Positions 24,684-29,569 of a stretch of DNA of 64,000 nt are shown piece by piece (position 1 is the stretch's first letter; every line of letters begins with the position of its first letter). The stretch comes from Numidum massiliense. Lineage in GTDB: Bacteria > Bacillota > Bacilli > Thermoactinomycetales > Novibacillaceae. The position numbers were made by a program, and so were the translations under genes. The DNA is taken from contig NZ_CTDZ01000009.1 in assembly GCF_001375555.1 (NCBI RefSeq), positions 737,758 to 801,757 of the forward strand. The letters run 5' to 3'. The notes beneath the pieces are model-generated. The model had not been told where the DNA came from. It did no database searches and was given only the letters and a program-made list of their open reading frames with translations.

Positions 24684-24749
24684 GGGTATGAAATAATTTC
24701 ATCATACGTTATTCCGATGATTCTATCGCTAATAGGAGGAAAGACAACA

Positions 24750-25325
24750 ATGCAACTTACAGTTGATAAAGTGCTCGACGCAACGGGATTGTCTTGCCCG
24801 ATGCCGATCGTGAAGACGAAACGAGCGATTGACGGTATGGCGGCGGGCGAAGTGTTAGAAGTTCACGCCACAGATCAAGGTTCCACTGCTGACATTAAGG
24901 CGTGGGCAAAAAGCACCGGGGTGCAATATTTAGGGACGATCACCGCCGGTGACGTACTCAAACATTACGTGCGCAAGCCGAGTGTCAGTGAGGTGGAAGA
25001 CCGTAGAGAAAGTGACGCGGTCGTCGCGCTAGACCAGTTGCAGGAAAAAGTCGCAGCTGGTGAAAAATTGACGATTATCGATGTGCGCGAACAGGCGGAA
25101 TACGCCTTCGGGCACATTCCAGGAGCGAAAAATATTCCGCTCGGGGAACTGGAAGAGCGGTTAAGTGAAATAGATCGTAATGACGACATTTACGTCATTT
25201 GTCGTAGCGGTAACCGCAGTGATTTGGCCGTACACACAATGAAGCAAGCAGGATTGACAAAAGTAAAAAACGTCGTTCCTGGGATGAACACGTGGACTGG
25301 TCCTACGGAGACATCCCACGCGTAA
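24750..25325 (+). CDS. TusA-rhodanese fusion protein (YrkF-like)
   Basis: 191 residues from an ATG with AGGAGG. Residues 1-~75 are a TusA/SirA domain with the sulfur-carrier motif ATGLSCPMPIVKTK. Residues ~95-190 are a rhodanese domain with catalytic loop VICRSGNRSD. It can accept a persulfide and relay it between two cysteines. Bacillus YrkF and staphylococcal CstA use related fusions. First gene of the sulfide/persulfide locus, directly after a CstR-type operator. Confidence 0.9.
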   Translation: MQLTVDKVLDATGLSCPMPIVKTKRAIDGMAAGEVLEVHATDQGSTADIKAWAKSTGVQYLGTITAGDVLKHYVRKPSVSEVEDRRESDAVVALDQLQEKVAAGEKLTIIDVREQAEYAFGHIPGAKNIPLGELEERLSEIDRNDDIYVICRSGNRSDLAVHTMKQAGLTKVKNVVPGMNTWTGPTETSHA

Positions 25326-25550: not shown

Positions 25551-25946
25551 ATGGGTAAAAAAGTTGCGATTATCGCTGCGAACGGCAGCTTGTTCGATGC
25601 GTACAAAGTGTTTAACATTGCGACGGCTGCCGCAGCGTCGGACGCTGAGGTAAAAATATTTTTTACGTTCGAAGGACTGAACCTCATTCATAAAGAGGGT
25701 TATAAACAGTTGCCGATTCCGGAAGGCCGCGAACAGATCGCCGCTGGATTCAAGAAGGCGAACGTGCCGTCAATGGAAGAAATGATTCCGCTGGCGCAAG
25801 AGATGGGCGTGACGTTTATCGCCTGTCAAATGACGATGGACGTGATGGACTTGCAAAAAGACGCCTTTATCGACGGAGTAGAAGTTGGCGGAGCAGCGAC
25901 GTTTTTACAGTTTGCGCAAGACGCCGACGTCAGTCTGACGTTTTAA
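25551..25946 (+). CDS. DsrE/DsrF-like sulfur-relay protein (YrkE-like)
   Basis: 131 residues. The DsrE fold shows KKVAIIAANGSLFDAYKVFN, FFTFEGLNLIHK and a candidate sulfur cysteine in GVTFIACQMTMDVM. The AGGAGG is 9 nt from the ATG. It likely passes sulfane sulfur among TusA/rhodanese partners in the cytoplasm. Gene order tusA-rhodanese, dsrE, rhodanese-MBL matches the Bacillus yrk cluster in content. Confidence 0.87.
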   Translation: MGKKVAIIAANGSLFDAYKVFNIATAAAASDAEVKIFFTFEGLNLIHKEGYKQLPIPEGREQIAAGFKKANVPSMEEMIPLAQEMGVTFIACQMTMDVMDLQKDAFIDGVEVGGAATFLQFAQDADVSLTF

Positions 25947-26007: not shown

Positions 26008-27162
26008 ATGTCTGTGCAAAAAATGTCGGCCAGGCAACTGGCACGGCTCATTATGAAACAGGAATCGTTGTTTATTTTAGACGTCCGGAATGAAGACGAC
26101 TATGCGGATTGGAAAATCGAAGGCGTCAATGTGCGCTCGATCAACAAGCCGTACTTCGAGCTATTGGACGGTGTCGAAGAAATCGCCGCACAGTTGCCTA
26201 AGGACGAAAACATTTTGGTCGTCTGTGCGAAGGAAGGCTCGTCAAAATTTGTCGCCGAACAACTGGCGGAAGCAGGTTTTGACCGCGTGTCGTATTTAGA
26301 AGACGGGATGGCATCGTGGAGCGAACATTTAGAGCCAGTAAAAATCGGTACGCTTCCCAGTGGGGGAGAGGTTTACCAGTTCGTACGGCTCGGTAAGGGA
26401 TGTCTCTCTTACGCCGTCGTCGCCGATGGAGAGGCGCTCATCGTCGACGCGAACAGGATGATCGGCGTGTATGAGACGTTTGCTGCCGAAAAAAAGGTCA
26501 TGATTACGCACGTCGTCGACACCCACTTGCACGCCGACCACGTCTCCGGCGGGCGCCATTTAGCCGAGCGGGCCGGAGCGACGTACTGGTTGCCGGCGCC
26601 AGATGCGGGGGATGTGACGTATGCGTATAAACCGTTGCAAGATGGTGGAGTACTTGAAATCGGCGCGGGTGTCGGTGCAGAAGCGGTGAAAAAAGTGACA
26701 GTAGAAGCGATACACACGCCGGGGCACACGATTGGCAGTACGTCCCTCATCGTCGGCGGTAAATACTTGCTGACAGGGGATACGTTGTTCGTCGCTTCGA
26801 TCGGGCGCCCAGACTTGGCGGGGCAAGCAACCGCCTGGGCGGACGACTTGCGCGCGACGCTGTACGACCGCTTCAAGGCGTTGCCGCACGAACTCGTCGT
26901 GTTACCTGGACACTTCGCCGAAGTGAGTGAGTTAAACGAAGACGGGAGTGTGCAGGAGACGCTCGGACAGCTTTACGCCCACAACAAAGGGCTCACGATC
27001 ACGGACGACGCACAGTTTCGCCGTGCCGTAACGGAAAACTTGCCGCCGCAACCGCACGCGTACGAACAAATTCGTATGACGAATAAGGGACAAACGCATC
27101 CCGATGCCGCGGAACAACGGGAAATGGAAATTGGACCGAACCGTTGTGCCATTCACGGGTAA
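26008..27162 (+). CDS. Rhodanese-metallo-beta-lactamase persulfide dioxygenase-like protein (YrkH-like)
   Basis: 384 residues. The N-terminal rhodanese domain (~1-110) has loop VVCAKEGSSK. The C-terminal metallo-beta-lactamase fold of the ETHE1 type has THLHADHVSGGRHLA, HTPGHTIGSTSL, LTGDTLFVASIGRPDL and VVLPGHFAE. ETHE1/CstB enzymes use Fe(II) to oxidise low-molecular-weight persulfides to sulfite. The rhodanese is at the N-terminus, the reverse of staphylococcal CstB order. Good RBS (GGAGGGGG). Confidence 0.9.
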   Translation: MSVQKMSARQLARLIMKQESLFILDVRNEDDYADWKIEGVNVRSINKPYFELLDGVEEIAAQLPKDENILVVCAKEGSSKFVAEQLAEAGFDRVSYLEDGMASWSEHLEPVKIGTLPSGGEVYQFVRLGKGCLSYAVVADGEALIVDANRMIGVYETFAAEKKVMITHVVDTHLHADHVSGGRHLAERAGATYWLPAPDAGDVTYAYKPLQDGGVLEIGAGVGAEAVKKVTVEAIHTPGHTIGSTSLIVGGKYLLTGDTLFVASIGRPDLAGQATAWADDLRATLYDRFKALPHELVVLPGHFAEVSELNEDGSVQETLGQLYAHNKGLTITDDAQFRRAVTENLPPQPHAYEQIRMTNKGQTHPDAAEQREMEIGPNRCAIHG

Positions 27163-27397: not shown

Positions 27398-28180
27398 ATG
27401 ACCATTGACTTCGCCGTGACACTGTTCGCGATCGGCTTTGTCGGCTCATTCGTTTCGGGGATGCTCGGCATCGGCGGTTCGATCGTTAATTACCCGCTCC
27501 TGTTATACGTTCCCCCTTTGGTCGGTGTGACGGCGCTAACGGCCCACGACGTGACCGGTATTAACGCGGTACAAGTTTTTTTTGCAACGCTCAGTGGGTT
27601 ATTCGTTTTCCGCAAAGGCGGTTATTTAAATAAGGCACTCATCGGGTATATGGGTGTGAGTATCGTGGCAGGTAGCTTTATCGGCGGTTACGGCTCCAAT
27701 GTTGCAAGTGCCGCCGCCATTAATACGACGTACGCGGTGTTGGCGACACTTGCCGCACTGCTTATGATCGTCCCGCAAAAAGAGAGCGACGATGTACCGC
27801 TGACCGAAGTGACGTTTCATAAACCGGCTGCGGTCGCCATCGGCTTTGCTGTCGGGTTGGCGGCTGGCGTCGTCGGTGCGGGAGGGGCCTTTATTCTCGT
27901 TCCGCTCATGTTGGTCGTTTTAAAAATACCGACGCGAATGACAATCGCGACCTCACTCGCGGTAACGTTTCTCTCGTCGATCGGTACGACGGCGGGAAAA
28001 CTACTCACCGGTCAAGTGTTGTTTGCGCCTGCTGCGGTTGTCGTCGTCGCCAGTTTGCTCGCCGCGCCACTCGGTGCTACGGTGAGCAAGAAAGTGAATG
28101 TCAAGTGGTTGCAGGCACTATTAGTCGTGTTAATCGTGGTAACGTCACTAAAAATTTGGGTCGACGTGTTAGGAGGATAA
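27398..28180 (+). CDS. TauE/SafE-family sulfite/organosulfonate exporter (YrkJ-like)
   Basis: 260 residues with seven to eight hydrophobic segments and the duplicated TauE/SafE glycine motifs GMLGIGGSIVNYPLLLY and GVVGAGGAFILVPLM. In this context it most plausibly exports sulfite made by the persulfide dioxygenase. Preceded by a 235-nt spacer and an RBS-like GGGTGAG. Function by family and neighbours, not by direct evidence. Confidence 0.87.
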   Translation: MTIDFAVTLFAIGFVGSFVSGMLGIGGSIVNYPLLLYVPPLVGVTALTAHDVTGINAVQVFFATLSGLFVFRKGGYLNKALIGYMGVSIVAGSFIGGYGSNVASAAAINTTYAVLATLAALLMIVPQKESDDVPLTEVTFHKPAAVAIGFAVGLAAGVVGAGGAFILVPLMLVVLKIPTRMTIATSLAVTFLSSIGTTAGKLLTGQVLFAPAAVVVVASLLAAPLGATVSKKVNVKWLQALLVVLIVVTSLKIWVDVLGG

Positions 28181-28318: not shown

Positions 28319-28389
28319 ATTAATAGTCGTATCGCCCGTTCGTCTTGTCGCAAGTGAGGCACGGTTGTATGCTGGAGGGAGGGTTCAGC

Positions 28390-28773
28390 GTGTCTGCAAG
28401 TATATTTTTTCTGCTCGTTGTCGTGGCGCTCGTCGGGTGGATGCTTTGGCAGAAGTTTGTGCCACCGAAAGGGGTCACGAACATTAATGTGCAAGAGCTG
28501 GAACAATTGTTAGCCAAGCGTGAGGACTGTTATTTTATCGATGTGCGCGAAACGCACGAGTACAAAGCTGGACATATCCGCGGGATGAAGAATATCCCGC
28601 TGTTAGAGTTGCACAATAGACGTAACCGCATCCCACAGCAGAAACAAATTGTCCTCATTTGCCGCAGCGGCAGGCGAAGTCGGATCGCGGCGAGAATGTT
28701 GGCGAAGCAGGGCTTTTCGCGCATAGCCAACGTTCGAGGTGGGATGCTCGCGTGGAAGGGAAGGGTATCATGA
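28390..28773 (+). CDS. Membrane-anchored rhodanese
   Basis: 127 residues from a GTG with GGAGGGAGGG 6 nt upstream. One N-terminal transmembrane helix (SIFFLLVVVALVGWMLW) is followed by a single rhodanese domain with DVRETHEYKAGHIRG and catalytic CRSGRRSRIA. Similar single-TM rhodaneses (YqhL-like) occur in Bacillus. The stop overlaps the cstR start (ATGA), so expression is coupled to the sensor. Confidence 0.87.
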   Translation: MSASIFFLLVVVALVGWMLWQKFVPPKGVTNINVQELEQLLAKREDCYFIDVRETHEYKAGHIRGMKNIPLLELHNRRNRIPQQKQIVLICRSGRRSRIAARMLAKQGFSRIANVRGGMLAWKGRVS

Positions 28774-29030
28774 AATACGAGAACGATGTAAAAAACCGCC
28801 TAAAACGGATTGAAGGTCAAGCGCGCGGCGTGCTGCGGATGATGGACGAGGAAAAAGACTGCCGCGAGGTGATCACGCAGCTGTCGGCTGTGCGCGCAGC
28901 TGTCGACCGCGCCATTTTGTACATCGTCGGGACGAATATGGAGCAGTGTTTGCGCGAGAACATTGCCAATGGCGAGGAGACAGACGACGTCATTAAGGAA
29001 GCAGTGCAAATGCTCGTCAAAAGCCGCTGA
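28770..29030 (+). CDS. cstR: Persulfide-sensing CsoR-family repressor CstR
   Basis: 86 residues of the all-helical CsoR/DUF156 fold. Cysteines fall exactly at positions 31 (EEKDC) and 60 (TNMEQC), the pair that forms interprotein tetrasulfides in CstR. The histidine that copper sensors place in the second helix is Asn56 here, arguing against a copper CsoR. It should derepress the two palindromic operators when sulfane sulfur accumulates. It overlaps the rhodanese gene. Confidence 0.9.
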   Translation: MKYENDVKNRLKRIEGQARGVLRMMDEEKDCREVITQLSAVRAAVDRAILYIVGTNMEQCLRENIANGEETDDVIKEAVQMLVKSR

Positions 29031-29139: not shown

Positions 29140-29278
29140 GTTAACGGGATTAAGCTAAAGACAAGCCCAATATACGAAGGCTAGCGGATACAGACAAAAA
29201 TGAGTCCATTGTATAAGGTAAATGCGGGGTAAGGAATTTGTGAACACGCACGTAGATCATTCGATGGAGGTGATAACG

Positions 29279-29569
29279 TTGTTAAAGGTGACACCGGCAG
29301 CAATTGCCCAATTAAAAAAGGAAGCTGAAAATCATCTCGAAAATAATGAGGAAATGTTTATTCGCGTGTCGATGGGCATTGGGTGAGGCGGTCCACGTTT
29401 ACAACTGACTCTGGAAGAGTCAGCCCAGCCTAACGATCAAGTGATCGACCTCGAAGAGAATTTAAAAGTGTTAGTTGGCAGTAACGATGCGGTGTATTTC
29501 GACGACAGTAAATTGGACTACACGAAGTCGCTGTTCGGCTTTGGACAGTACAAGCTCTTGCGCGTGTAG
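29279..29569 (+). CDS. HesB/IscA-like selenoprotein candidate (in-frame TGA)
   Basis: A TTG with GGAGG 8 nt upstream opens a 96-codon frame with one internal TGA at codon 36 (29384-29386). Before it the product reads LKVTPAAIAQLKKEAENHLE ... RVSMGIG; after it GGPRLQLTLEESAQPNDQ ... FGQYKLLRV up to TAG. This aligns with the IscA/HesB fold. The TGA falls on the first conserved cysteine (GGCSG in IscA), and the C-terminal CGC cysteines are absent. Sixty further codons remain open, and a SECIS-like hairpin begins 18 nt after the TGA. Selenocysteine is the favoured reading; HesB-like selenoproteins are a known family. A recent nonsense mutation is the alternative. Confidence 0.8.
29405..29423 (+). 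promoter_or_regulatory. Bacterial SECIS-like hairpin
   Basis: A perfect 7-bp stem CTGACTC / GAGTCAG with loop TGGAA. The loop starts 25 nt after the TGA and carries G in its first positions, as expected for SelB-recognised bacterial SECIS elements. It lies inside the reading frame. Confidence 0.72.

Follow-up and report, generated by a model that had tools for sequence, protein, structure and literature searches.

The gene at positions 29279-29569 of the window, by which we mean the whole 64,000-nucleotide stretch analysed (C9:737758-801757 in a genome of 3.76 Mb on 9 contigs), almost certainly encodes a 96-residue selenoprotein of the HesB/IscA fold with selenocysteine (Sec) predicted at residue 36. 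We make this assignment because the genome carries a complete Sec machinery, the in-frame TGA is conserved among relatives, SelA co-occurs with it, and the hairpin behind it covaries. During translation SelB carrying Sec-tRNA-Sec would bind this hairpin, which starts 18 nt beyond the UGA. The comparative evidence strongly suggests that selenocysteine is inserted at residue 36.

The TGA-bearing gene and the selenocysteine machinery

The elements of the gene, all on the forward strand, are as follows.

29266-29272, + strand: ribosome binding site GGAGGTG, 6 nt 5' of the TTG, recognized from sequence
29279-29569, + strand: predicted HesB-like selenoprotein gene with TTG start, 96 codons (29279-29566) plus TAG; PF01521 match of 39.6 bits; IscA/SufA fold predicted, pLDDT 92
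29384-29386, + strand: in-frame TGA, codon 36, predicted Sec at the position of the first cysteine conserved in IscA/HesB (GIGUGGPR); same-site TGA in 20 other Bacilli loci
29405-29423, + strand: predicted bacterial SECIS hairpin, 8-bp stem, GGA loop; based on covariation, synonymous resampling and fit to the published bSECIS model

The sequence-only reading described a 96-codon frame with a strong ribosome binding site and a lone TGA at the position of the first IscA/HesB cysteine. This description was confirmed: the frame contains exactly one TGA and is otherwise intact. With the TGA translated as Sec (U) the product is LLKVTPAAIAQLKKEAENHLENNEEMFIRVSMGIGUGGPRLQLTLEESAQPNDQVIDLEENLKVLVGSNDAVYFDDSKLDYTKSLFGFGQYKLLRV. 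Sec36 is the sole Cys or Sec in this protein, the C-terminal C-x-C of IscA-type proteins is missing, and the UxGP motif that PMC13188914 gives for HesB-like selenoproteins is present as U36-G-G-P39. The claim that family-like sequence continues beyond the TGA also held, with the read-through protein scoring above the gathering cut-off of Pfam PF01521 (Fe-S_biosyn; 39.6 vs 26.3 bits, E 7e-10). Ordinary gene-calling software would cut the gene at the TGA, and it was missing from the hits when the genome was searched with PF01521, presumably because of the TGA.

A genome lacking Sec machinery had been named as an observation that would speak against a selenoprotein. All four components searched for are present: selA (C9:947504-948865, 596 bits), selB (C9:924114-925982, 355 bits), a tRNA-Sec with UCA anticodon (C9:938211-938303) and selD (C5:695-1624, 418 bits). 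The selD gene is itself a selenoprotein gene, with one in-frame TGA and a hairpin downstream. The sole formate dehydrogenase alpha subunit above the cut-off in the genome has no TGA.

Relatives of the protein and their residue at codon 36

The corresponding codon is also TGA in 20 other Bacilli loci (two on plasmids), all of which read U-G-G-P. The strain is thus not alone in carrying the TGA; a TGA in this strain only, with other decay and with intact Cys codons in close relatives, had been regarded by the sequence-only reading as fatal to its proposal. When 399 genomes of the class were searched by profile, 17 more loci with an internal TGA emerged, and in all 15 that were fetched it lies at the same codon. 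Sampling genomes by profile was more productive than scanning contigs with the single protein, by which one distant Cys relative only was obtained. Within the same order three genomes have the TGA at this codon and three have a Cys relative. Alignment of homologues, which had been proposed as a check, shows Sec or Cys at codon 36: Cys occurs in L026, L083, L084 and L054 and TGA in 21 loci, indicating Cys/Sec exchange among homologues. SelA was found above the cut-off in 21 of 21 TGA-bearing genomes (this one included; the TGA position was read in all but G209 and G071) and was absent from all three genomes with a Cys relative. In a phylogenetic tree the window protein clusters with nine further Sec proteins at 99/97 support, which is shown for this group rather than for the Sec proteins as a whole, and ordinary IscA of the same order forms a separate clade.

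The gene was also found by tblastn on plasmids of Mesobacillus foraminis and Cytobacillus, with the TGA at the site in all three cases read. TGA-bearing HesB genes L047, L048 and L049 lie on Mesobacillus and Cytobacillus plasmids of 377-551 kb. No selB was found on the plasmids carrying relatives, which means that the UGA would have to be decoded by machinery from another location in the cell. In four plasmid records no annotated feature lies under the match, which is suggestive only since the gene table used (PLSDB) is incomplete.

HesB-like selenoproteins were listed in 2005 (PMC1088965) and in 2006 (PMC1794560), and they count among the commoner bacterial selenoproteins with 90 proteins in 86 organisms (PMC5029168). 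As the class dates back to 2005 or earlier, the window gene is an addition to it. The sequence-only reading was correct in calling such proteins known, but its statement that they are not common in Bacillales has to be corrected, given TGA relatives in 20 other Bacilli genomes of the 399 sampled and on plasmids of Mesobacillus and Cytobacillus. Three Bacillales selenoproteins had already been counted in 2006 in a passage that leaves their families unnamed (PMC1794560).

Against the two NCBIfam selenoprotein models the read-through protein gave significant E-values with scores far under the curated cut-offs: 23.7 bits for TIGR01911 (HesB_rel_seleno, cut-off 66.35) and 31.2 bits for NF038090 (IscA_HesB_Se, cut-off 85). 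It is therefore a relative of these families and not a member by their rule. Eight other TGA-bearing proteins that were scanned likewise scored below both cut-offs, and the Bacilli branch falls below both models. Together with the missing annotation in the four plasmid records, these scores indicate that the branch is probably under-counted. Like established HesB-like selenoproteins, the window protein belongs to the IscA/HesB family and has UxGP, with Sec in the place of the first conserved Cys and a downstream bSECIS; it differs in its low scores and in belonging to a Bacilli branch that is partly located beside sulfane-sulfur genes.

Among solved structures the AlphaFold2 model (pLDDT 92) best resembles IscA (1x0g, TM 0.79) and SufA (2d2a, 0.77), and DsrR (2k4z, 0.76) is also a clear match. 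The protein has the fold and the first Cys/Sec position in common with IscA/SufA/ErpA (PF01521, TIGR00049), whereas it lies outside the IscA clade of the same order and has one Sec, no Cys and no C-terminal C-x-C. It thus lacks the three conserved cysteines, including C-x-C, of A-type Fe-S carriers.

The hairpin downstream of the TGA

The perfect 7-bp hairpin with a G-containing loop reported from sequence, CTGACTC/GAGTCAG, does start at 29405, 18 nt past the TGA. Its stem extends to 8 bp if the U-A closing pair is counted (29405-29412 with 29416-29423), leaving the loop GGA at 29413-29415. The loop is located 26 nt from the TGA, or 25 nt if it is counted as UGGAA. Hairpins of this kind, defined as a Watson-Crick stem of at least 7 bp with a G-bearing loop 16-37 nt from the TGA, follow only 6 of the 1746 TGA triplets that the two strands of the window contain (0.34%). 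A check against bacterial SECIS rules had been suggested, and the element fits them and covaries. The published bSECIS model has a loop of 3-9 nt, a stem of 4-16 bp, a G in the first two loop positions, a distance of 16-37 nt from the UGA and a minimum free energy of at most −7.5 kcal/mol (PMC13188914); the 8-bp stem, the GGA loop, the 26-nt distance and an energy of −9.5 kcal/mol for the hairpin alone all lie within these bounds.

The 55 nt from the TGA onward align without gaps across 21 loci. In this alignment 91.7% of the SECIS cells are paired, while column shuffles gave 82.6% and slid controls 35-64%. Changes on both sides of the stem occur in four of the eight pairs (e.g., C-G to G-C or A-U, and G-C to U-A), and the covariation score was 0.335 as compared to 0.195 for shuffled alignments (0/500) and 0.014-0.082 when the element was slid. 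When codons of the same proteins were resampled synonymously (n = 2000), on average 102 and at most 119 pairs were formed, vs 154 of 168 in the actual sequences. At the loop, leucine is encoded by CTG in 20 of 21 loci, yet CTG accounts for only 4-42% of nearby Leu codons. The pairing is not explained by coding constraint. Folding energy by itself was unremarkable at the hairpin (z −1.14), and an Rfam search of the region matched no family; it is the comparative evidence, not folding energy, that decides in favor of the predicted SECIS element.

These results bear on the possibility that the gene is a decayed IscA/HesB gene in which the TGA is a nonsense mutation or a sequencing error. The interrupted frame, the scores under the curated NCBIfam cut-offs and the presence of an ordinary IscA encoded elsewhere in the same genome would agree with decay, but the TGA shared by many genera, the covarying SECIS, the full set of Sec genes and a frame that is intact apart from the TGA and preceded by a good ribosome binding site make this explanation extremely improbable. 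A pseudogene or sequencing error was rejected on the conserved TGA and the SECIS covariation.

Sulfur genes upstream and the possible role of the selenoprotein

Upstream of the predicted selenoprotein gene lies an array of sulfur genes with the same orientation, on which the sequence-only reading had made no remark.

24717-25325, + strand: TusA-rhodanese fusion (PF01206, PF00581)
25551-25946, + strand: DsrE-family protein (PF13686, PF02635)
26008-27162, + strand: rhodanese plus metallo-beta-lactamase fold, persulfide-dioxygenase-like (PF00753, PF00581)
27398-28180, + strand: TauE/SafE sulfite exporter family (PF01925)
28345-28773, + strand: rhodanese with hydrophobic N-terminus (PF00581)
28770-29030, + strand: CsoR-family repressor, CsoR/CstR/YrkD type (PF02583)

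The array resembles in outline, rather than by gene-to-gene comparison, the yrkD cluster of Bacillus licheniformis, of which the YrkD repressor senses sulfane sulfur (PMC9918477). In two related genomes these sulfur genes are accompanied by a further paralogue with a HesB domain (L086 ~11691 and L091 ~13178, both − strand). It likewise has a TGA in frame (DSUAGG / DTUVGG), followed by a stretch resembling a hairpin; this paralogue was not found in the window.

The IscA/SufA fold and the location of Sec at the first cluster ligand position would be compatible with a true selenoprotein acting as an IscA-like Fe-S scaffold or carrier, with Sec as a cluster ligand shared, for example, between subunits or partners. 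We consider this unlikely, as the window protein has neither the C-terminal C-x-C nor any other cysteine and DsrR is a protein of the same fold that does not bind Fe-S, as indicated by the title of Grimm et al. 2010 cited in PMC11406059. With Sec36 as the only thiol or selenol and C-x-C absent, IscA-style cluster building is unlikely, and the protein probably does not hold an IscA-like Fe-S cluster by itself. DsrR of Allochromatium vinosum is IscA-like and has a part in sulfur oxidation. It is similar in fold and in being encoded with sulfur-oxidation genes, whereas it comes from another phylum and another operon type; the likeness concerns fold and context, not orthology or Sec.

For the selenoprotein a role in sulfane-sulfur handling is a reasonable candidate, to which we assign slightly less than even chances. 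The CsoR-family-regulated array suggests that this small protein would most likely use its selenol to accept, carry or reduce sulfane sulfur, or else bind a thiophilic metal, with DsrR comparable in outline. Sulfur genes (at least three types within ~7 kb) occur at 8 of 20 other Sec loci, as compared to 0 of 20 for ordinary IscA (Fisher p 0.003, a value that overstates independence because the eight loci stem from about four lineages).

A somewhat less probable explanation is that the neighborhood is incidental and that the selenoprotein has, for example, a general role in selenol redox chemistry or metal binding. Most relatives lie beside unrelated genes: 11 or 12 of the 20 Sec loci have no sulfur genes next to them, and other Sec loci that were examined have neighbors such as a helicase, a glycosylase, an MFS transporter and gyrase. 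A sulfur role may thus be lineage-specific or accidental. Furthermore, the 248 bases between the end of the repressor gene and the selenoprotein gene would allow a separate transcript; a simple scan of this region revealed neither a promoter-like nor a terminator-like site in the forward direction, although this falls short of proving co-transcription. The enrichment of sulfur genes argues against an incidental neighborhood, as does the Cys relative in SelA-lacking genomes (L083, L084), which is also located between two rhodanese genes.

The open-access literature gave no report linking HesB-like selenoproteins to yrk/cst-type gene clusters, which is weak evidence of absence. We tentatively propose, as a minority expectation, that a distinct and largely unannotated Bacilli branch of HesB-like selenoproteins uses its selenol to carry or reduce sulfane sulfur in persulfide gene clusters of the yrk/cst type, with Sec36 replacing the cluster chemistry of IscA. 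The recurrent position beside persulfide-handling genes provides a testable functional hypothesis for this branch.
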